From: Tenacibaculum dicentrarchi
Lineage (GTDB): Bacteria > Bacteroidota > Bacteroidia > Flavobacteriales > Flavobacteriaceae
Reading direction: 5' to 3'
NCBI RefSeq assembly: GCF_900239345.1
Contig: NZ_OESZ01000001.1
Location: forward strand, 186,001 to 250,000
Length of the DNA: 64,000 nucleotides
The position numbers were made by a program, and so were the translations under genes. Within the stretch, counting starts at the first letter, position 1. The number at the start of each line of letters is the position of its first letter. The notes beneath the pieces were generated by a model. The model saw nothing but the letters and a program-made list of their open reading frames with translations, was not told the DNA's origin and made no database searches. Below, piece by piece: positions 40,614-64,000 of this stretch.

Positions 40614-43600
40614 ATGGAGAACTTTAATAACATCGAACAGAAATTACAGCAATTTAGTAGAAAATTCTACACAAATAAATTGATAAAAGGAAGTATTTTA
40701 TTTATTTCCTTAGGATTAATATATTTATTTTTCACCTTATTTATAGAGTATTTTCTATGGCTAAAACCCACCGCTAGAACGCTACTATTTTGGATATTTA
40801 TTATTGTTGAATTATTTTTATTTGTCAGATTTATCTGTTTTCCGATTTTTAAAATCATCGGTTTACAACAAGGAATTTCTTTTGAAGAAGCATCAAAAAT
40901 AATAGGAAATCATTTTCCTGAAGTACAAGATAAACTTTTAAATCTGCTTCAATTAAAACAAAACAACACTAAATCTGATTTATTAATAGCAAGTATTAAT
41001 CAGAAATCAGAAGAAATACAACCAATTTCTTTTAACAAAGCAATCGATTTTAAAAGTAATATTCGCTATTTAAAATATGCGTTAATTCCGTTAATTATTT
41101 GGGGATTATTTTTTTTGACAGGTACTTCTAGGCAATTATCTGAAAGTTTTAATCGAGTTGTAAATCATTCGGTTGCTTATAAAGCTCCTGCCCCTTTTTA
41201 CTTTAATATCACGGCAAAAAACTTGACTGTTATAAAAGGAAAAGATATTACTGTGTATGTACAAACAACAGGAAAATCTATTCCTGAACAAACAAAAATT
41301 CATTTTAATAAGCAACAATATTTCTTCAAAAATGAAGGAAATGGTTTGTTTTCTTACACTTTTACACAAGTACAAAAGCCTGTTGATTTTTATGCAAGTG
41401 CCAATGGTATTACTTCCGATTTATTTAAAATAGCCGTAATAAATACGCCTTCGATTCAAAATATTTCATTGCATTTAACGTATCCGAACTATATCAAAAA
41501 GAAAAATGAAATCATTAAAAACACTGGAAATATAATTGTTCCACAAGGAACAATTGTAAAATGGGATGTTAAAACTTCTGAAACTGATAGTGTTCATTTA
41601 CTTTCAAATAACAAACGATTTCCTTTTTTAAAGGATAAAAAAAATAAATTTCAATTTAAAAAACAGGTAAAAAAAGCACTCAATTATAAAATTACAACCA
41701 CTAATAAAAATTTAAAAGAGTACGAAAAATTACAGTTTTCGATTGGAGTTATTAAAGATGAACATCCGACAATTAATGTAAAATCTAATATTGATAGTAT
41801 TTCACGTGGAAATGCGCAGTTTGTAGGGCAAATTTCTGATGATTATGGTTTCAAAAAATTAGAATTGGTTTATTATGATAAAAATAATAATCAACAAAAT
41901 AAGCAATTCAAAAAAATTAAGCTGACTAAAAACACCTTGCAAACTTTCTTTTTTGAATTTCCTGATAACTTGAATTTCCAAAAAGGAATTAACTACGAAA
42001 TGTATTTTCAAGTATTTGATAATGATATTATCAACGGAAATAAAAAAACTAAAAGTCAGAAATTTTCTTATCGACAAAAAACAAAAAATCAAATTGATAC
42101 AGAAATTTTACAAGAACAACGTAATCATATTCAAAATTTAGAAAACTCTTTAAGTAAACAAAAACAAGAGAAAAAATCGTTAGAAAAAATTCAGTTTGAG
42201 CTTCAAAATAAAAAAAATGTAAATTGGAATAATCAGAAAAAAATTCAAAATTTAATTAAGCGTCAAAATCAATATAAAAAAATGATGCAACGGCAAACCG
42301 ATAATTTGAAGAAAAATTTTTCAGAGAAAAAAGAAAAAAAGGAAGCCTTGCAAGAAAAAAAAGAAGAACTAAAAAAACGCATTGAAGAGCTTAAAAAATT
42401 AGATAAACAACAAAAATTATTAGACGAACTTAAAAAGTTAACGGAAAAATTAAATAGAGAAGATTTAATAAAAAAAACCAAAGAATTAGCCGAACAAAAC
42501 AAACAGCAAGAAAAAAGTTTAGAGCGTATTTTAGAAATGACAAAGCGTTATTATATTGAACAAAAAATGCAAAAACTTGCTGATAATTTAAAAGATTTAT
42601 CAAAAAAACAAAAAGATTTAAGTAAAAAAGAATCGCCTAAAGATGCTAATAAAAAAGCTTCCGAAGAAAAAATAAAAGAAGAACAACAAAAAATAAACAA
42701 GGATTTTCAGAAAGTTAAAAAAGAGCTAAACGAACTTAAAAAAGATAATGAAAAATTAAAAGCTCCGATGGAAATTCCGAAAATGGAAGATTTAGCAAAA
42801 AAAACGCAAGAAAAATTAAACAAAGCCGAAGAAAATTTAGAAAATAAAAAAGAAAACGAAGCTAAAAAAAATCAGAAAAAAGCTTCTGAAAAAATGGATG
42901 AAATGGCACAAAAAATGCAAAAATCAATGCAAGAAATGAGTGCAGAATCGGAAGAAGAAAACATGGAAGGTTTGCGTCAGGTTTTAGAAAATTTAATTAT
43001 TTTTTCTTTCAATCAAGAAGATTTAATGAATGTTTTTTCAGAAAGTAATTCTTCGCATCCTAACTTCGGAAAAAACTTGCAAAAGCAATTTCAACTTAAA
43101 ACTTATTTTGAACATATTGATGATAGTTTATTTGTTTTATCAATTAAAAATCCTAAAATATCTTCAAAAATTCAAGACGAACTTTCTTTGGCTCATTATA
43201 ATTTAGATGAATCTTTAGAAAATTTTGCCGATAATAAATTTCAGAATGGAATTTCGAATCAGCGTTATATAATGACCGCCACAAATACTTTAGCCGATAT
43301 GTTAAGTAACACGCTTGATGCCATGAAAAACCCAAAATCTGGTAACGGGAAAGGAAAAGGAAAGGGAAAAGGGAAATCTTTTAGCTTGCCCGACATCATT
43401 AAAAAGCAAAGCGAATTAATCAAAAAAATGAAAGACGGAATGAAAAAGAAAAAAGGTGGAAAACCTAAAGATGGCAAAGGAGGCAAAAAGAAAGGAAACA
43501 AATCAGGAGAAAAAGAAGGTGGAAATAAAAAAGGTAGCGGAGAAAGTGAAAAATTAAATGGAGAATTATATCAAATTTATAAAGAACAATCGCAATTAAG

Positions 43601-43982
43601 ACAGCAATTAGAAGAGGCGCTTCAACAAAATAAAAATGGAAAAGGCGGAAATGGGAATGCTAAAAAAGTGGTGAAAAAAATGGAACAGTTAGAAAACGAC
43701 ATTTTAGAAAAAGGTTTTACCCAACAAAGCATTAACAGAATGCAAGAATTAAATTATCAATTGCTGAAATTAAAAAAAGCTACTTTTGAACAAAATAAAG
43801 ATAAACAACGGAAATCTGATGCTAATTTAAAAGAGTTTAACAATAAAAATGCTAAAGAATTAAAGTTTAAAAAGTTGTTTTATAACCAAACAGAAATATT
43901 AAATAGACAATCATTACCTTTGCAACCTGATTATAAAAAGAAGGTTCAAGAGTATTTTAGCCTTCCTAAAAGCAACAAATAA
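40614..43982 (+). CDS. DUF4175-family membrane-anchored coiled-coil protein
   Basis: A 1122-residue protein of the DUF4175 type. Two N-terminal transmembrane helices (about residues 23-45 and 55-80) and a third near 150-168 are followed by an extracytoplasmic-type beta region (~190-480) and then a long Lys/Glu/Gln coiled coil (~490-800). Residues ~905-1005 are low-complexity Gly/Lys (GKGKGKGKGKSFSLPD, later GKGGKKKGNKSG). The C terminus is helical. Function is unknown. In other Bacteroidota, DUF4175 genes lie near cell-envelope or aerotolerance-type operons; here it directly precedes ybeY by 35 bp. The Lys-rich part is likely to bind an acidic surface or nucleic acid, which is speculation. 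Confidence 0.85.
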   Translation: MENFNNIEQKLQQFSRKFYTNKLIKGSILFISLGLIYLFFTLFIEYFLWLKPTARTLLFWIFIIVELFLFVRFICFPIFKIIGLQQGISFEEASKIIGNHFPEVQDKLLNLLQLKQNNTKSDLLIASINQKSEEIQPISFNKAIDFKSNIRYLKYALIPLIIWGLFFLTGTSRQLSESFNRVVNHSVAYKAPAPFYFNITAKNLTVIKGKDITVYVQTTGKSIPEQTKIHFNKQQYFFKNEGNGLFSYTFTQVQKPVDFYASANGITSDLFKIAVINTPSIQNISLHLTYPNYIKKKNEIIKNTGNIIVPQGTIVKWDVKTSETDSVHLLSNNKRFPFLKDKKNKFQFKKQVKKALNYKITTTNKNLKEYEKLQFSIGVIKDEHPTINVKSNIDSISRGNAQFVGQISDDYGFKKLELVYYDKNNNQQNKQFKKIKLTKNTLQTFFFEFPDNLNFQKGINYEMYFQVFDNDIINGNKKTKSQKFSYRQKTKNQIDTEILQEQRNHIQNLENSLSKQKQEKKSLEKIQFELQNKKNVNWNNQKKIQNLIKRQNQYKKMMQRQTDNLKKNFSEKKEKKEALQEKKEELKKRIEELKKLDKQQKLLDELKKLTEKLNREDLIKKTKELAEQNKQQEKSLERILEMTKRYYIEQKMQKLADNLKDLSKKQKDLSKKESPKDANKKASEEKIKEEQQKINKDFQKVKKELNELKKDNEKLKAPMEIPKMEDLAKKTQEKLNKAEENLENKKENEAKKNQKKASEKMDEMAQKMQKSMQEMSAESEEENMEGLRQVLENLIIFSFNQEDLMNVFSESNSSHPNFGKNLQKQFQLKTYFEHIDDSLFVLSIKNPKISSKIQDELSLAHYNLDESLENFADNKFQNGISNQRYIMTATNTLADMLSNTLDAMKNPKSGNGKGKGKGKGKSFSLPDIIKKQSELIKKMKDGMKKKKGGKPKDGKGGKKKGNKSGEKEGGNKKGSGESEKLNGELYQIYKEQSQLRQQLEEALQQNKNGKGGNGNAKKVVKKMEQLENDILEKGFTQQSINRMQELNYQLLKLKKATFEQNKDKQRKSDANLKEFNNKNAKELKFKKLFYNQTEILNRQSLPLQPDYKKKVQEYFSLPKSNK

Positions 43983-44434: not shown

Positions 44435-44438
44435 AATC

Positions 44439-44452
44439 GTTCCTAATGGAAC
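44439..44452 (+). promoter_or_regulatory. Small hairpin between ybeY and mnmG
   Basis: GTTCC-TAAT-GGAAC stem-loop with no T run, 11 bp before the mnmG ATG. It resembles the stem of the terminator after mnmG; it may affect mnmG translation. Confidence 0.35.
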
Positions 44453-44463
44453 AGCTTTAAAAA

Positions 44464-46341
44464 ATGAGTTTATTTAATACAACATACGATGTAATTGTAG
44501 TAGGTGGAGGACATGCTGGTAGTGAAGCTGCCGCAGCAAGTGCAAACATGGGAGCGCACACATTATTAATTACAATGAATCTTCAAAATATTGCTCAAAT
44601 GAGCTGTAACCCAGCAATGGGTGGTATTGCGAAAGGACAAATAGTAAGAGAAATTGATGCATTAGGTGGTTACAGTGGAATTGTAACCGACAAAACGGCT
44701 ATTCAATTTAAGATGCTTAACAAATCGAAAGGACCTGCAATGTGGAGTCCTAGAGCGCAATCTGACAGAATGCAATTTGCAGAATGTTGGAGAAATATGC
44801 TTGAAAAAACCGATAATTTAGATTTTTATCAAGATGCCGTAAACGGATTAATTTTTGATGAAAATAAAATTGTTGGCGTAAAAACAGCCTTAGGTTTAGA
44901 AATAAAAGCCAAAACAGTAATTATTACTGCAGGTACTTTTTTAAATGGATTAATCCATATTGGTGAAAAAACCTTTGGTGGTGGTAGAGCTGGTGAAGGT
45001 GCTTCAACTGGTATTACTGAAGATTTAGTTGAAAAAGGTTTTGAAGCTGGAAGGATGAAAACAGGAACTCCGCCAAGAGTTGATGCAAGGTCTTTAGATT
45101 TTTCTAAAATGACTGAACAACCTGGTGATGAAAATCCTGAAAAATTTTCTTACTTACCAATTACTGAAAAATTAACCACACAGCGTTCTTGTTATTTAAC
45201 ATATACAAATCAAAAAGTACACGATATTCTTCGTGAAGGTTTTGACCGTTCGCCAATGTTTAATGGTAGAATTAAATCGACAGGACCAAGATATTGCCCA
45301 TCAGTAGAAGATAAAATTGACCGTTTTGCTGATAAAGAACGTCATCAAGTTTTTGTAGAACCTGAAGGATGGAATACCGTAGAAATTTATGTAAACGGAT
45401 TTTCTACCTCATTACCTGAAGATGTTCAAGACAAAGCAATTAGACATATTGCAGGTTTTGAAAATGTAAAATTCTTACGTTTTGGATATGCTATTGAATA
45501 TGATTTCTTTCAGCCAACACAATTAAAACATAATTTAGAAACTAAGTTAATTGAAAATTTATTTTTCGCAGGACAAATTAACGGAACTACTGGTTACGAA
45601 GAAGCAGCTGCACAAGGTTTAATGGCAGGTGTAAATGCGGCTTTAAAAACTCAAAATAAAGAACCTTTTATCTTAAAAAGAAGTGAGGCTTATATTGGAG
45701 TTTTAATTGATGATTTAATTACAAAAGGAACAGAAGAACCTTACAGAATGTTTACTTCTCGTGCTGAATATAGAACTTTATTAAGACAAGATAATGCTGA
45801 TTTACGTTTAACAGAACTAGCTTATAATCTTGGTTTAGCATCTAAAGAAAGATTAGATAGAGTAATAAATAAGAGAACTAAAACAGCCGCTCTTGTTAAA
45901 TTTGTAGAAAATTTAAGTGTTAAACAACAAGAAGTAAATCCTATTTTAGAAAGCAAAGGACTTAGTTTAATTAATCAATCTGTAAAATTATTTAAAATTG
46001 CTACTAGGCCACAATTAACATTTAATGATTTTAGAGTTATTGAAAAACTAGAAAATTATCTTCAAGAAAATGAAATGGATCAAGAAATAATTGAACAAGT
46101 TGAAATTCACTTGAAATATTCTGGTTATATTGAAAAGGAAAAAAATAATGCCGACAAATTAAACCGATTAGAAAACGTTAAAATTCCTGCTAAATTCGAT
46201 TTTAATAAAGTTCATTCATTATCACATGAAGCTAGAGAGAAATTAAATAAAATTCAGCCAACTTCAATATCACAAGCTAGTAGAATAAGTGGTGTATCAC
46301 CAAGTGATATTTCTGTTTTATTAGTTTACATGGGAAGATAA
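44464..46341 (+). CDS. mnmG: tRNA uridine-5-carboxymethylaminomethyl synthesis enzyme, FAD subunit
   Basis: FAD-dependent subunit of the MnmEG complex that modifies the wobble uridine (U34) of several tRNAs. The 625-residue protein has the dinucleotide-binding VVVGGGHAGSEAA near residue 10, the MnmG signatures GRAGEGAS, LKTGTPPRVD-like MKTGTPPRVDARS near 200, and GPRYCPSVEDKI near 275, plus NGTTGYEEAAAQGL near 375 and the C-terminal helical MnmE/tRNA-binding domain. Length and order are normal. A strong terminator lies 20 bp past the stop. Confidence 0.97.
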   Translation: MSLFNTTYDVIVVGGGHAGSEAAAASANMGAHTLLITMNLQNIAQMSCNPAMGGIAKGQIVREIDALGGYSGIVTDKTAIQFKMLNKSKGPAMWSPRAQSDRMQFAECWRNMLEKTDNLDFYQDAVNGLIFDENKIVGVKTALGLEIKAKTVIITAGTFLNGLIHIGEKTFGGGRAGEGASTGITEDLVEKGFEAGRMKTGTPPRVDARSLDFSKMTEQPGDENPEKFSYLPITEKLTTQRSCYLTYTNQKVHDILREGFDRSPMFNGRIKSTGPRYCPSVEDKIDRFADKERHQVFVEPEGWNTVEIYVNGFSTSLPEDVQDKAIRHIAGFENVKFLRFGYAIEYDFFQPTQLKHNLETKLIENLFFAGQINGTTGYEEAAAQGLMAGVNAALKTQNKEPFILKRSEAYIGVLIDDLITKGTEEPYRMFTSRAEYRTLLRQDNADLRLTELAYNLGLASKERLDRVINKRTKTAALVKFVENLSVKQQEVNPILESKGLSLINQSVKLFKIATRPQLTFNDFRVIEKLENYLQENEMDQEIIEQVEIHLKYSGYIEKEKNNADKLNRLENVKIPAKFDFNKVHSLSHEAREKLNKIQPTSISQASRISGVSPSDISVLLVYMGR

Positions 46342-50322: not shown

Positions 50323-52539
50323 TTAATGTGATACTAAATGAAAATCTAAATGTTTACGTTCTAAATCTGTATTTTTTACCTTTACAACAACTTTATCTCC
50401 TAATTGAATTATGTTATTAGATGACTGTCCTACAATGGCATATTGTTTTTCATCAAAAGTATAATAATCATCTTTTATATCTCTAATTCTAACCATTCCT
50501 TCGCACTTATTTGCTGTGATTTCTACGTAAATTCCCCATTCTGTAACTCCTGAAATAACACCTTCAAATTCTTCATCTTGATGATCTTTCATGTACTTTA
50601 TTTGCATATATTTTATGCTAGAACGCTCTGCTTTTGCAGCTAATTCTTCCATTTGTGAAGAATGCTTACATTTTACTTCATATTCATCAGCTTTTGGCGA
50701 AGTTCCTCCATCTAAATAATGTTGTAATAAACGGTGTGTCATCACATCAGGATAACGACGAATTGGCGATGTAAAATGCGAATAATAATCAAAAGCCAAA
50801 CCATAATGTCCAATATTTTGAGTTGTATAAGCAGCTTTACTCATCGAACGAATTGCTAAAGTTTCTACCATATTGGCTTCTCCTTTACCCTGAACATCAT
50901 TTAATAATTTATTTAAAGATTGTGATGTTTTTTCTTTAGTTTCGGTATCTATTTTATAACCAAACTTATTAATAATGTTCTGTAAAGAAGCTAATTTATC
51001 AATATTTGGTTCATCATGTGTACGATATATAAAAGTATCTTTTGTTTCTTTTCCTTTAGAAAAACCAATAAATTCGGCTACTTTTCTGTTTGCTAATAAC
51101 ATAAATTCTTCAATAAGTTTATTAGCATCTTTCGATTCTTTAAAGAAAACTCCCACAGGATTTGCTTTTTCATCTAAATCAAACTTTACTTCTACTCTAT
51201 CAAATGAAATTGCGCCTGCTTTCATACGTTTTTTACGTAATTTTTTGGCTAATTCATCTAGTTTTAAAGTAGCTTCAACTATTTCTGGAGCTACTTGATA
51301 ACTTTTATCAATAATTGAAATATCTACAGGCATTTCGTAGGCTTCAATATTTTCTGATAATTTACAGTTTTCTATAATTGATTGTGCTTCTTCGTAAGCA
51401 AAACGCTGGTCGGAATATGTTACTGTTCTACCAAACCATTTGTTAATAATTTGAGCTTTTTCATTCATTTCAAAAACTGCTGAAAAAGTTAATTTTTCTT
51501 CATGCGGACGTAAAGAACAAACTCCGTTACTTAACATTTCTGGTAACATTGGCACTACTCTATCTACTAAATAAACTGATGTTGCTCTATCATAAGCTTC
51601 ATCATCTAAAATAGTTTTTGGTTGTAAATAATGCGAAACATCGGCAATATGAACTCCTATTTCATAATTTCCGTTTTCTAATTTTGTAAATGATAATGCA
51701 TCATCAAAATCTTTAGCATCTTTTGGGTCAATGGTAAAGGTTAAATCTTTACGCATATCTCTTCTTTTTGAAATTTCGTTTTCAGTAATTTCAATAGGTA
51801 AATTTTCGGCTTCTTTTTCTACTTCTTCAGGAAATTCATAAGGCAAACCATATTCTAATAAAATAGAATGTATTTCGGTTTCATGTTCGCCTGGTTTACC
51901 TAAAACTTGTGTAATTTTTCCAAACGGATTTTTAGAATTTTGTGGCCAATCAGTCATTTTTACAACAACTTTTTCACCGTCTTGTGCTCCGTTTAATTTA
52001 TTTTGAGAGATAAATAAATCCACAGGCATTTTTTGATTATCAGGAATTACAAATCCAAAATTTTTGTTCATTTGTAAAATACCTACAAATTCTGTTTTTT
52101 TACGTTCAATTATTTCAACAACTTCAGCTTCTAATTTAGAAGACCTTCTTTTATTATAAACAAAAACTTTAACAGTATCTTGATGTAATCCTTTTCCTAA
52201 ATTTATTGCAGGAATAAAAATATCATTTTCAAAATCATCAGACATAAAATATGCATTTCCTGTTGATGTTACATCTAAAGTTCCAATATGATATTTTCGG
52301 TCGTTATTTATTTGATATTTACCTCTATCAACTTCTTTAATTTTTTTTGTTTCGTGTAATTCTACTAATTTTTTAAGTACTTGGCTTTTTCCATCACCAT
52401 CAGAAATACCAATTTTACTGGCAATCTGTTTGTAATTATATGTTTTTGAAGTGTCTTCTTTTAATATTTTGAAAATCTTTAAAGTTAAGTCTTTAATTAC
52501 TTTTCCCTTTTTTTTATATATTTTTTTCTTTCTAGTCAT
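50323..52539 (-). CDS. rnr: Ribonuclease R
   Basis: A 738-residue 3'-5' exoribonuclease that degrades structured RNA. An N-terminal winged-helix region (TYNKYQIASKIG-like TYNYKQIASKIG) precedes cold-shock OB folds (HIGTLDVTSTGNAYF, FVGILQMNKNFGFVIPD), the RNB catalytic domain with DPKDAKDFDDALSF near residue 275, and a C-terminal S1 domain (EFEGVISGVTEWGIYVEI). The Lys-rich tail of E. coli RNase R is absent; the basic stretch is at the N terminus. It is divergent from rpiB across an unusually long, A/T-rich gap. Confidence 0.96.
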   Translation of the reverse strand: MTRKKKIYKKKGKVIKDLTLKIFKILKEDTSKTYNYKQIASKIGISDGDGKSQVLKKLVELHETKKIKEVDRGKYQINNDRKYHIGTLDVTSTGNAYFMSDDFENDIFIPAINLGKGLHQDTVKVFVYNKRRSSKLEAEVVEIIERKKTEFVGILQMNKNFGFVIPDNQKMPVDLFISQNKLNGAQDGEKVVVKMTDWPQNSKNPFGKITQVLGKPGEHETEIHSILLEYGLPYEFPEEVEKEAENLPIEITENEISKRRDMRKDLTFTIDPKDAKDFDDALSFTKLENGNYEIGVHIADVSHYLQPKTILDDEAYDRATSVYLVDRVVPMLPEMLSNGVCSLRPHEEKLTFSAVFEMNEKAQIINKWFGRTVTYSDQRFAYEEAQSIIENCKLSENIEAYEMPVDISIIDKSYQVAPEIVEATLKLDELAKKLRKKRMKAGAISFDRVEVKFDLDEKANPVGVFFKESKDANKLIEEFMLLANRKVAEFIGFSKGKETKDTFIYRTHDEPNIDKLASLQNIINKFGYKIDTETKEKTSQSLNKLLNDVQGKGEANMVETLAIRSMSKAAYTTQNIGHYGLAFDYYSHFTSPIRRYPDVMTHRLLQHYLDGGTSPKADEYEVKCKHSSQMEELAAKAERSSIKYMQIKYMKDHQDEEFEGVISGVTEWGIYVEITANKCEGMVRIRDIKDDYYTFDEKQYAIVGQSSNNIIQLGDKVVVKVKNTDLERKHLDFHLVSH

Positions 52540-53429
52540 TAATCTTTCGTCTTATTGTTAATTATCACCAAAATACGAATAAATAAACTGTGTATTTTAT
52601 TAAATAACTGTTATCAATTTATTGTTTTGGACTAATTTTTACATTATTTATGATATAATCATATTTTTTAAACTCAATAAAAAATTGAGCAATTTTTATA
52701 CCATAAAAATAGTTAGTTGTTTTGCTTTTCTAGGTCTTACTAGAATTTTCTTACTTAGTAAAAAATATAGCAATTAAATTGCTGTTAATTGAGAAGTAAC
52801 TACACAGTGTTGTAACGCAAATATATATAAATATAGTAACAATCTTAAATTGATTTTAACCAAATTGATTAATAAGAAATAAAAACAATTCATATTCTTT
52901 AATAAGGTTATTAACATTTATTATATTATATATATTTTCTCTTTTAATAAAAAAAAAAAAATAGTTGTTATTATAGTGTGTTAATAAGTAGAATAAGTAT
53001 TTGCTATTATTTTTGTAAATATGACTTATTAAATAATATTAACAGGTTATAATGTATTTAAAAGTTTTTAAATGAGTGCTTTAATAAAGTTATTAACAAT
53101 TGTTGTTAACCGTTAATAACAATTAATTATTAATAACTTTATTAAGTTTCATTGTTAATAAGAGGTTAATTTTATGTTGATAAATGTTTATTAGAATCTG
53201 ATAAAAAAAGTTGTGTATATTAAATATACTTTTGTATCGTAAAAATATTTTAGATAAACAAAAAAAGTTTTAAAAAGATACTCTTACTTATTAACATTCA
53301 GCTGGTATTTATAAATATTTGATTTTTAGACCCTTATCTGTTTTTATTAAAAAAGCATTGTTAATTACTGTTGATAACCCTGAATTACTGTATTTTTGTT
53401 ACACACAACTAAATTAAAATCAACAAATT
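52540..53429. other. 890-bp A/T-rich intergenic region with clustered TGTTRATAA boxes, candidate oriC
   Basis: No gene is visible. Seven exact 9-mers of the form TGTTRATAA or its complement occur within 470 bp: TTATTAACA at 52908, 53090 and 53288; TGTTAATAA at 52979 and 53153; TGTTGATAA at 53175 and 53369. The DnaA box consensus TGTGGATAA differs at one (TGTTGATAA) or two (TGTTAATAA) positions. There is a run of 13 A at 52949-52961 and a long, nearly pure A/T tract around it that could unwind. The flanking genes rnr and rpiB both point away. These are the features expected of a replication origin, but the assignment is an inference. Some boxes may instead bind a regulator of rpiB. Confidence 0.45.
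53371..53398 (+). promoter_or_regulatory. rpiB promoter overlapping a TGTTGATAA box
   Basis: TTG at 53371-53373 and TATTTTTG at 53391-53398 form a -33/-7 pair with normal spacing, 31 bp before the rpiB ATG. The last TGTTGATAA box (53369-53377) covers the -33 element, so a protein bound there would be expected to affect rpiB transcription. Confidence 0.55.
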
Positions 53430-53867
53430 ATGACAATAGCCATTGGAAATGACCATGCTGGTACTGAGTATAAATTTGAAATTATAAAATTTTTAGAAAA
53501 ACAAGGACACAAGGTTATTAATTTTGGAACAAATGATAGTAATAGTATGGATTACCCAGATGCTATTCACCCAACAGCTGAAGCCGTAGAAACTAAGCAG
53601 GCTGAAATGGGAATTATTTTATGCGGAAGTGGTAATGGTGCACAAATGACTGCTAATAAACATCAAGGAGTACGTGCTGCTTTATGTTGGAATAATGAAT
53701 TAGTAGCATTAACTCGTCAACATAATAATGCCAATATTTTAACTATTCCTGCTCGTTTTGTATCATTACAACAAGCTTTAGGTTTTGTAACTATATTTTT
53801 AAATACTGAATTTGAAGGAGGAAGACACGCAAACAGAGTTAATAAAATAGCTTGCGATTGTCTATAA
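53430..53867 (+). CDS. rpiB: Ribose-5-phosphate isomerase B
   Basis: A 145-residue LacAB/RpiB-family isomerase interconverting ribulose 5-phosphate and ribose 5-phosphate in the pentose phosphate pathway. Signatures: IAIGNDHAGTEYKFEI at the start, DYPDAIHPTAEAV near residue 45, and IILCGSGNGAQMTANKH (active-site Cys) near 65. The C-terminal end HANRVNKIACDCL is typical. It is the first gene to the right of the candidate origin. Confidence 0.95.
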   Translation: MTIAIGNDHAGTEYKFEIIKFLEKQGHKVINFGTNDSNSMDYPDAIHPTAEAVETKQAEMGIILCGSGNGAQMTANKHQGVRAALCWNNELVALTRQHNNANILTIPARFVSLQQALGFVTIFLNTEFEGGRHANRVNKIACDCL

Positions 53868-53900
53868 TAGTTTATAATCATTATAAATTAATTTTTTTAA

Positions 53901-54341
53901 ATGAACTTTTTAATCAAAAAATTTACAGAATTAACAATATCAGAACTCTATCAAATATTACAATTACGTTCTGAAATTTTTGTTGTTGAACAAAACTGTG
54001 TATATCAAGATCTTGATAATAAAGACCAACACGCCTTACATGTTTTAGGAATAAAGAAGGATAAAATTATAGCTTATACACGTTTATTTAATAGCGGTGA
54101 ATACTTTGAAACTCCAAGTATTGGTAGGGTACTTGTTAAAAAAAATGAACGTAAACATGGTTACGGTCATTTTTTAATAGAAGCCTCTAAACAAGCGGTT
54201 TACGATAATTATAATTCGAATAAGATTACTATATCAGCTCAAAAATATTTAATAAAATTTTATAAATCTCATGGATTTATAAAAGAAGGAAAAGAGTATT
54301 TAGAAGATGGAATACCACATGTTAAAATGAAAATAGCGTAA
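53901..54341 (+). CDS. GNAT-family acetyltransferase, ElaA-like
   Basis: A 146-residue acetyltransferase of the ElaA type: ELYQILQLRSEIFVVEQNCVY near the start, DLDNKDQHALHVLG, and the acetyl-CoA motif IGRVLVKKNERKHGYGHFLI near residue 75-95. The substrate is not known. It is 33 bp downstream of rpiB and may be co-transcribed with it. Confidence 0.9.
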   Translation: MNFLIKKFTELTISELYQILQLRSEIFVVEQNCVYQDLDNKDQHALHVLGIKKDKIIAYTRLFNSGEYFETPSIGRVLVKKNERKHGYGHFLIEASKQAVYDNYNSNKITISAQKYLIKFYKSHGFIKEGKEYLEDGIPHVKMKIA

Positions 54342-61840: not shown

Positions 61841-61846
61841 TTGTAA

Positions 61847-62119
61847 GAGCCTATTTGAAAATTAAATAAACTGTTAGTTCTAGTGATTTTTTTATTTCAA
61901 AAAAATTGTATCGAGAACTCCCACATAAAATAATTCAATTTTTCGATACAATTTTAATTTATTTTAGTCATTAAAAGCACTCGAATTGACAAAAATTATC
62001 AAAAAAAAGCTAAAAAACAGGGCAAATCAGGATTAGAAACTGAACTAAAATCCCTTTGACGGCTTCGATTTCTTATTTTGATGTTATAAAACTTTTTTAG
62101 ATGAAATTTAAACAGGCTC
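61847..62119. mobile_element. 273-bp MITE-like element with TAA target duplication
   Basis: The ends GAGCCTATTTGAA and the complement of TTTAAACAGGCTC match at 11 of 13 positions as terminal inverted repeats, and TAA occurs directly outside each end (61844-61846, 62120-62122). GAGCCT ends with a TAA duplication resemble IS5-family elements of Bacteroidota. No transposase frame is present, so it must have depended on a transposase elsewhere. Inside, two arms (61871-61919 and 61940-61991) resemble the right half of the moa-cluster repeat in opposite orientations (TTGTATCGAGAAC and its complement). Confidence 0.7.
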
Positions 62120-62290
62120 TAAGAAAAAATAAATTTAATAGGCTTTATTACATATTTAAAACCTCTTCACTCTTTTTTCAAAAATATCTTTTAAATTCAT
62201 TTCAAAATATTATTTAGGATATATTTTTTTTCTCTAAATTTTACATTTTTTAATATACATTTTATTTTTAAATGTTAAAGATAAGTTAAC

Positions 62291-62314
62291 AAAAATAGGG
62301 TTAACCCTATTTTT
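62291..62314. promoter_or_regulatory. 24-bp perfect palindrome upstream of the LRR gene
   Basis: AAAAATAGGGTT is followed directly by its complement AACCCTATTTTT. The palindrome lies about 20 bp before the -33 element; GGTATTG is repeated twice just after it. It is a candidate operator for a dimeric regulator of the secreted LRR protein. Confidence 0.5.
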
Positions 62315-62332
62315 AATTAGGGGTATTGGGTA

Positions 62333-62363
62333 TTGTACAGGTAAATAACATCTCTTAGATTTG
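62333..62363 (+). promoter_or_regulatory. Promoter of the LRR gene
   Basis: TTG at 62333-62335 and TAGATTTG at 62356-62363 fit the -33/-7 pair with normal spacing. The start would be near 62368, giving a leader of about 130 bases before the ATG at 62498. Confidence 0.5.
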
Positions 62364-62497
62364 TAAAATTATTACTAACTATAAGTAGTTAATTTGTTGA
62401 TTTTTATTTGTTTATATGTTTTTTTAAAAATAAATGATAAATCATTAAATTAATAATATTATTAGCCGTAATAATATTAACCAAAAATAAAAAATAT

Positions 62498-64000
62498 ATG
62501 AAAAAACTATTATTCTTAACCTTATTAATAGGTTACTATGCTATTGGAAATACACAAAATATTAATTTTCCTGACTCCAATTTTAAAAATGCACTTTTGA
62601 GTCATAGCCCTTTAGTAGATACAGATAGCAATGGTGAAATAAGTGTTCAAGAGGCAGAAAATTCAAAATATTTAAGATTAACGAATAAAGGTATAAGTGA
62701 TTTAAGTGGAATAGAAAATTTCTCAAATTTAGAAGGTTTAACAGTAAATAAAAATCAATTAATATCTATAGACCTTACAAAGAATACTAAGTTAAAATTA
62801 ATTAATTTAAGTGATAATAAAATAAGTAATATTAATATAACTAATAATTTAGATTTAAAATCTTTTAGTATTCGGAATAATAAATTAACTGATATAAATA
62901 TAGCTACAAATTTAAACTTAACATCATTAGATGTTTTTAATAATAATATACAAAGTATTGATATTTCTAAAAATGTATTATTAACAAATTTAAATGTAGC
63001 ATCTAATTTTAGTTTAGGGCAATTAAACATTACTAAAAATGTATTATTAAAACATTTATATGCTTTTAATAATGGGTTAACTGAAATTGATATTTCTAAT
63101 AATACTAATTTAGTAACTCTTAATGTTATGCAAAATAATTTATTAAATTTAGATGTTTCAAAAAATGTGTTATTGACATCAATATCTGTAAATAACAATA
63201 AATTGACAGATATAAATCTTTCTAATAACTCTAAATTGGGTTGGTTACGTATTCAATATAATAAATTAAATACCTTAAATGTAAGACCTTGTTCACTTAT
63301 TTTTTTAAATTTTGAGGGTAATTCTAATTTAACAAGTGTTTCTATGACTGGGCAATCAATAGGATATACAACATCAATTTCAGGTGAAGAAAAATTAAAT
63401 GTAAATTTAAAAAATTGTCCTAAATTAGAATTTATTTGTGCTGAACAGGAATATTTAAATGATATTTTTACTCTATTAGAAGAAGCTAATCAAACAAGTT
63501 GTATGCTTTCTAATGATTGTGATGTACCTCATAATCGTATTAAAGGTACTATTACTTATGATGTAAATGGCGATGGTTGTGATAGTGCTGATGTTCCTTT
63601 TACAGGAGGTTTAAGAGTTTCTGCAATTTCATTGACAAATGGTCAATCTACTGTGGCATATCCAAATCAAGAAGGAAAATACGCACTGCATATATCAGAT
63701 GGTACCTATTTTATAGCTCCTGCCCTACAGAATTTAAATTATTTTACATTTTCAACACCAGTTACTCCTACACCAATAAATATTCCTGTACAGTTAAATA
63801 CATTAATAACAGATTATTGTGTAAAATCAGTTGGTAACTTTAATGATTTAGAAGTAAGTATTGTTCCTTTAACTAGAGCAAGACCAGGTTTTAATGCAAC
63901 TTATAAACTTACCTATAAAAATATAGGAACAACGACACAATCTGGTACGGTTACTTTAAATTATCAAGAAAATGTGCTAAACTATGTTAGTTCAATACCT
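62498..64000 (+). CDS. Secreted leucine-rich-repeat protein (3' end outside window)
   Basis: An open frame of 501 codons from an ATG with a signal peptide (MKKLLFLTLLIGYYAIGNTQ) to the window edge. The segment with VDTDSNGEISVQEAE resembles a short EF-hand-like lead-in, and residues ~65-290 form about ten irregular leucine-rich repeats (LINLSDNKISNINITNN, LTSLDVFNNNIQSIDISKN). After a Cys-containing junction (SCMLSNDCDVPHNRIKGTI), a beta-sandwich domain begins (YDVNGDGCDSADVPFTGG). Such proteins in Flavobacteriia usually continue with DUF7619-like and type IX sorting domains, which would be off the edge. It is probably surface-attached or secreted; adhesion is likely but not shown. Confidence 0.85.
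   Translation, partial: MKKLLFLTLLIGYYAIGNTQNINFPDSNFKNALLSHSPLVDTDSNGEISVQEAENSKYLRLTNKGISDLSGIENFSNLEGLTVNKNQLISIDLTKNTKLKLINLSDNKISNINITNNLDLKSFSIRNNKLTDINIATNLNLTSLDVFNNNIQSIDISKNVLLTNLNVASNFSLGQLNITKNVLLKHLYAFNNGLTEIDISNNTNLVTLNVMQNNLLNLDVSKNVLLTSISVNNNKLTDINLSNNSKLGWLRIQYNKLNTLNVRPCSLIFLNFEGNSNLTSVSMTGQSIGYTTSISGEEKLNVNLKNCPKLEFICAEQEYLNDIFTLLEEANQTSCMLSNDCDVPHNRIKGTITYDVNGDGCDSADVPFTGGLRVSAISLTNGQSTVAYPNQEGKYALHISDGTYFIAPALQNLNYFTFSTPVTPTPINIPVQLNTLITDYCVKSVGNFNDLEVSIVPLTRARPGFNATYKLTYKNIGTTTQSGTVTLNYQENVLNYVSSIP

Follow-up and report, generated by a model that had tools for sequence, protein, structure and literature searches.

The DNA analysed here, referred to throughout as the window, is a 64-kb stretch of the genome of Tenacibaculum dicentrarchi (C15:186001-250000 of an assembly of 2.8 Mb in 47 contigs). 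Within it, an 890-bp gap separates rnr from rpiB, which corresponds to C15:238,540-239,429 in the contig's own coordinates, and the identities of both flanking genes were confirmed by Pfam. The principal features of the locus are given below, where row counts refer to an alignment of 67 related loci plus the window (68 rows); loci L097, L098, L099 and L107 were left out of this alignment, their gaps holding other large ORFs.

52540..53429, unstranded: whole rnr-rpiB intergenic region, proposed oriC (boxes, flanks, skew, A+T content)
50323..52539, minus strand: rnr (RNase R), left flank (Pfam)
53430..53867, plus strand: rpiB, right flank (Pfam)
52908..52916, minus strand: putative core DnaA box, 513 bp from the rpiB start; exact in 53/68 rows, at most one mismatch in 68/68
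52979..52987, plus strand: putative box, perfect in the window, L033, L037 and L101
53090..53098, minus strand: putative core DnaA box, 331 bp from the rpiB start; exact in 52/68 rows, at most one mismatch in 66/68
53153..53161, plus strand: putative box, perfect in the window, L042, L108 and L109
53175..53183, plus strand: putative core DnaA box, 246 bp from the rpiB start; exact in 54/68 rows, at most one mismatch in 65/68
53288..53296, minus strand: putative box, weak (TGTTAAGAA) in 52/68 rows; perfect only in the window, L033 and L037
53369..53377, plus strand: putative core DnaA box, 52 bp from the rpiB start; exact in 53/68 rows, at most one mismatch in 60/68
52908..52975, unstranded: probable DNA unwinding element, an A/T tract with a 13-A run (from calculated stability)
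53371..53398, plus strand: TTG-N17-TATTTTTG before rpiB, a match to the Bacteroidota-type promoter consensus

Most of what a sequence-only reading of this DNA had claimed for the gap was confirmed. The two flanking genes are indeed divergent, with rnr starting at 52539 on the minus strand and rpiB at 53430 on the plus strand, and the seven boxes listed, which are exact matches to TGTTRATAA/TTATYAACA, are all present within 470 bp, as had been reported. Dinucleotide shuffling of the gap (20,000 shuffles) yielded a mean of 0.22 boxes and a maximum of 4, hence the cluster exceeds chance. The A+T content of the gap, put at close to 80%, is 81% as opposed to 72% for the window, and the longest A run is 13, as stated. 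The assertion that this is the longest gap in the window was incorrect, since it ranks second to one of 914 bp at 61841-62754, irrespective of whether ORFs of at least 60, 80 or 100 aa are considered. No GATC was seen in the gap, and an Rfam search of positions 52000-54000 returned no matches.

Next, the conservation of the locus was examined in related flavobacteria, a comparison that the same reading had put forward as a check, and box clusters were found to recur at the rnr-rpiB gap. Of 253 related rnr loci, the 80 with the best scores were kept for this purpose; in the six best named loci, which include T. finnmarkense, T. ovolyticum, T. piscium, T. soleae and Tenacibaculum sp. AHE14PA, Rnr is 91-94% identical to that of the window. 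An rpiB gene was found in 71 of the 80 best named loci, always divergent from rnr and with a gap between the two. Seven of the nine named loci lacking rpiB end within 1.7 kb upstream of rnr, and in L051 and L110 the gene is absent despite 6 kb of sequence upstream of rnr. Boxes at approximately 52, 246, 331 and 513 bp from the rpiB start are present in most Tenacibaculum and Polaribacter loci, and these four core positions hold near-constant spacing and orientation among the relatives. The box at 53153 reads TGTTAACAA, TGTAAAGAA, TGTAAACAA or TGTAAATAA in the ten near relatives displayed, and at 52979 the remaining near relatives displayed have TGTTAATAT or TGTTAATAG. A further block, strongly conserved and not a DnaA box, lies at window 53232-53242 and has the consensus TTGTATTGTAA. 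Additionally, an ORF of at least 224 aa is located inside the gap in 54 of the 71 named loci and is absent in 17, the window's three near relatives being among the latter.

The survey was extended to 29 other genera of Flavobacteriaceae, with one locus per genus (the best 29 new loci from a search of 60 genomes). Upstream of rpiB, TTATNAACA occurred 75 times in these loci versus 8 times for the reversed motif, with shuffling predicting a mean of 6.6 and a maximum of 15 (300 runs). At least two copies were present in 22 of the 29 loci and none in four, and a divergent rnr was visible within the short locus in 21 of the 29. The spacing seen in Tenacibaculum is mostly not kept in these genera. 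In loci from other families, exact TGTTRATAA was not seen within the locus in four of six cases, suggesting that the box rule may end at the level of the family. A search across the family for the exact box-pair pattern matched 22 of 299 genomes, with rnr and/or rpiB present in six of the 22 loci; since the reversed control matched in seven genomes, the pattern is a weak indicator when used alone. Groups of at least three boxes per 500 bp were also sought in 113 sampled stretches (2.24 Mb, window excluded), a sampling that took in part of each genome and could have missed other clusters. Such groups were present at the rnr-rpiB gap in all four sampled complete genomes. Only two were encountered outside it, both in Tenacibaculum sp. 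AHE14PA (G039) and both inside long ORFs, namely at L175:14807 (a 1417-aa ORF, approximately 9 kb from the skew switch described below) and at L180:13544 (a 1410-aa ORF).

The identity of the box itself was then considered. In the 71 loci, the 700 bp adjoining rpiB are enriched 16- to 42-fold in TTATNNACA with NN being CA, TA, AA or GA, relative to the remaining sequence of those loci, whereas the CC variant is only 1.7-fold enriched (two places near rpiB and 20 in the rest). On this basis the box of the lineage is TTATNAACA and not TTATCCACA; no copy of the canonical TTATCCACA is present in the gap. Across the whole genome there are 14 occurrences of TTATCCACA versus 76 reversed-control matches, and 379 of TGTTRATAA versus 267 reversed. 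The apparent depletion of TTATCCACA was dropped after a Markov estimate on 496 kb of the organism's own sequence (5 seen against 2.2 expected), and the apparent excess of TGTTRATAA likewise vanished against Markov estimates (28 against 33.6 and 38 against 36.2 expected).

Strand-composition skew was analysed at the third codon positions of ORFs, with gene strand fitted separately, using 374 ORFs from 20 sampled stretches plus the window for the organism's own contig and 20-27 stretches for each of four complete relatives. The best step in the own contig falls at C15:240,476, with an approximate 95% set of 236,665-242,968 that contains the gap. In G016 the best step is at 129,184 (set 121,714-134,747) and the gap at 131,100, and in G002, where the gap was put among the candidates, the best step is the gap itself at 3,572,300, with a wide set of 3,571,544-3,681,057. 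A skew minimum at this place, which the sequence-only reading had proposed as a check and which is observed here as a negative-to-positive switch, is borne out in these three genomes, but not in the remaining two: the best step in G020 is at 827,749 (825,152-853,719), 35 kb from the gap at 862,800, and that in G039 is at 2,265,984 (2,263,919-2,269,365), 52 kb from the gap at 2,318,300. Placing the origin at the gap worsens the fit by dSS/s2 of 10.3 and 61.2, respectively. These misfits are real, and we can only guess that local rearrangement near the origin is their cause. If replication is taken to run from the gap to the fitted terminus, the G039 chromosome divides into arms of approximately 0.8 and 2.0 Mb; the unequal arms and the offset switch possibly reflect a recent inversion or an assembly fault. 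A local skew term pooled over the 71 named loci has the correct sign and is small (coefficient 0.02, F about 10).

A clear dnaA-linked origin with canonical boxes would have told against the gap, and none was found. The organism's own dnaA is located on a different contig, C14, and is not adjacent to the gap; in the complete same-genus relatives compared, dnaA lies approximately 0.8-1.7 Mb from rpiB. The 18 kb around the own dnaA contains two TGTTRATAA sites some 5.4 kb apart, with no box cluster and no TTATCCACA. Fitting dnaA as the origin is worse than the best fit by dSS/s2 of 81 (G020), 239 (G039), 120 (G016) and 179 (G002), and the dnaA locus was accordingly rejected, with skew far worse in all four complete genomes and no cluster in the region read.

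The wider neighbourhood of the gap, on the rnr side, contains three further features.

44464..46341, plus strand: mnmG/gidA, 6 kb from the gap
44438..44453, unstranded: putative decayed parS; T. soleae has an aligned, intact palindrome upstream of mnmG, from which three central bases differ here
41798..41813, unstranded: weaker parS-like site with CACGTG retained, inside a 1122-aa ORF (40614-43982)

The mnmG gene is a classical origin-region marker, and has been used as such in other studies also (PMC12843772, PMC8994065, in the accessible portions of each). A search of 10 genomes for parS with at most two mismatches gave 21 matches versus 16 for the reversed control, so that the number alone is uninformative. 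The CACGTG core is kept in eight of the 21, and all eight lie on the rnr side, at approximately 11-26 kb from the start of rpiB, and are spread over six of the 10 genomes; no such core-bearing site was found in the other four, which include the genome of the window. Relaxed CACGTG matches in the sampled stretches include a near site at 13 kb in G016 and another at 8 kb in G039, as well as three that are distant from the gap (G020, two; G039, one).

Collectively, these data support the original proposal of a chromosomal replication origin at this locus, through skew, conserved box clusters and the absence of a dnaA-linked origin, and we consider it highly probable (approximately 0.93) that the rnr-rpiB gap is the chromosomal oriC of this Tenacibaculum, situated far from dnaA. 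DnaA, expressed from its gene elsewhere in the genome, would bind the four strong boxes (TTATNAACA) at their near-constant spacing together with further weaker boxes between them, and the bound protein would form an oligomer able to melt the A/T tract at about 52908-52975, next to the outermost box. The melted tract would then permit helicase loading, with forks departing both ways, past rnr and past rpiB. As regards the melting site, only two positions in the 64-kb window are less stable by calculation than the 30-bp stretch starting at 52908, and for 60- and 100-bp windows 16 and 13 positions, respectively, have lower calculated stability. A DnaA-trio scan gave a single short match and no convincing set of trios.

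The boxes could feasibly constitute a cluster for titration or reactivation of DnaA, with the origin itself at another nearby locus. The datA and DARS loci of E. coli are clusters of this type, which bind DnaA without being origins, and the displacement of the skew switch by 35-52 kb in two relatives would be in keeping with such an arrangement. However, the switch falls at the gap in the own contig, in G016 and, with its wide set, in G002; the three-box group nearest to the G039 switch (at about 2,274,808) sits within the 1417-aa ORF; and no four-box cluster was present away from the gap in the 2.24 Mb sampled. This explanation is accordingly regarded as improbable. Less likely still, the boxes might be transcription-factor operators serving the divergent rnr and rpiB promoters, given that the rpiB-proximal box (53369..53377) overlaps the TTG, or upstream element, of the promoter-like match before rpiB. 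Against this, the conserved boxes extend more than 500 bp from rpiB, the ORF present in 54 of the 71 gaps in most cases lies between the cluster and rnr, and a regulator would not set a genome-scale skew switch at this position. A chance pile-up of A/T-rich motifs, which the base composition of the gap might invite, can be dismissed, as none of the 20,000 shuffles reached seven boxes and the spacing is kept across genera. If the gap is the origin, the overlap of box and promoter implies that initiation may interfere with rpiB transcription.

The replication origins of E. coli and B. subtilis are DnaA-dependent, with clustered 9-bp boxes, and in E. coli mnmG is near oriC. The gap resembles both in having 9-bp boxes clustered in both orientations, an adjoining A/T-rich tract and a skew switch, and resembles E. 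coli in the proximity of mnmG. It differs in its box, TTATNAACA rather than TTATCCACA, in the large distance to dnaA, and in the lack of GATC. To our knowledge, experimentally mapped origins are scarce in Bacteroidota, and a literature search combining rnr or RNase R with rpiB and oriC found no origin described at rnr-rpiB, albeit DoriC may list one. The origin predicted with Ori-Finder in Elizabethkingia meningoseptica, according to the accessible text, is likewise far from dnaA, contains A/T-rich elements and carries three boxes that match TTATCCACA with at most one mismatch; it differs in that the canonical motif was assumed (PMC8994065). In Algorimicrobium, also of the Flavobacteriaceae, Ori-Finder 2022 placed the origin at mnmG, with a check by GC skew, as far as the available part of that report goes (PMC12843772); in the window mnmG is a short distance from the gap. 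Ori-Finder 2022 uses TTATCCACA and dnaA by default, both changeable by lineage, and the accessible part of its description notes that DnaA boxes are frequently species-specific and that proximity of oriC to dnaA is not universal. A dnaA-unlinked oriC is therefore a known kind of object, and the view that the present one is an ordinary example in a well-defined place is well supported. A gap defined by two genes, together with the lineage box TTATNAACA, provides a ready place to search for oriC across the Flavobacteriaceae, with uses in setting genome starts, estimating growth rate from metagenome coverage and building replicating vectors.

The sequence of DnaA itself may bear on the altered box. 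In domain IV, the four solved chains that were aligned (1j1v, 8btg, 3pvp and 2hcb, which we take to be DnaA of E. coli, B. subtilis, M. tuberculosis and Aquifex) read DHTT, whereas the own DnaA reads DHAT, the variable residue presumably being E. coli T435. Among 16 relative loci, 15 share DHAT with the own DnaA (L113 and L114 have identical coordinates and were taken as one genome), the sixteenth being unmatched by the search expression. A connection between this substitution and the altered box is offered only as a suggestion.

Differences were also apparent in the segregation system. No ParB was found in the genome of the window, nor in three further, distinct ones (two of T. finnmarkense and one of T. 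piscium), the set comprising G000, G018/G341, G008/G342 and G344, where slash pairs share coordinates and were counted once. ParB is present in the four other close genomes searched and in seven further relatives. The best ParA matches of the four genomes are 43-45% identical to the query, versus 91-95% in three ParB-bearing relatives, and the four form one clade (support 100/100) in a 23-row rnr tree in which the parB state is known for eight rows. The parS site that T. soleae retains in intact form upstream of mnmG carries one central change in T. piscium as against three in the window, and in T. finnmarkense (L284) no intact-core match was seen over the 20 kb adjoining the gap. It appears, therefore, that this four-genome Tenacibaculum clade, the window included, is without chromosomal parAB and that its parS has decayed. 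At 52979, 53153 and 53288 the window has perfect boxes where sister species have weak ones; both T. finnmarkense genomes have perfect boxes at 52979 and 53288, and in T. piscium none of the three is perfect, its exact boxes, seven in all, being elsewhere. Weak origin boxes have become consensus boxes in the window and in T. finnmarkense. Loss of ParABS could conceivably be linked causally to this strengthening, with initiation timing changed as regulated weak sites became constitutive strong ones, although we consider this doubtful; only one clade is involved, and the association may be coincidence. The clade represents a natural test of the mutual dependence of segregation and initiation. The gene between the origin and rnr is absent from the clade also, but is missing from 14 other named loci, including the ParB-bearing L048, so that its loss is not special to the clade. 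In L036, the one locus in which this gene was tested, it encodes a diacylglycerol-kinase/YegS-like protein (L036:4974-5933).
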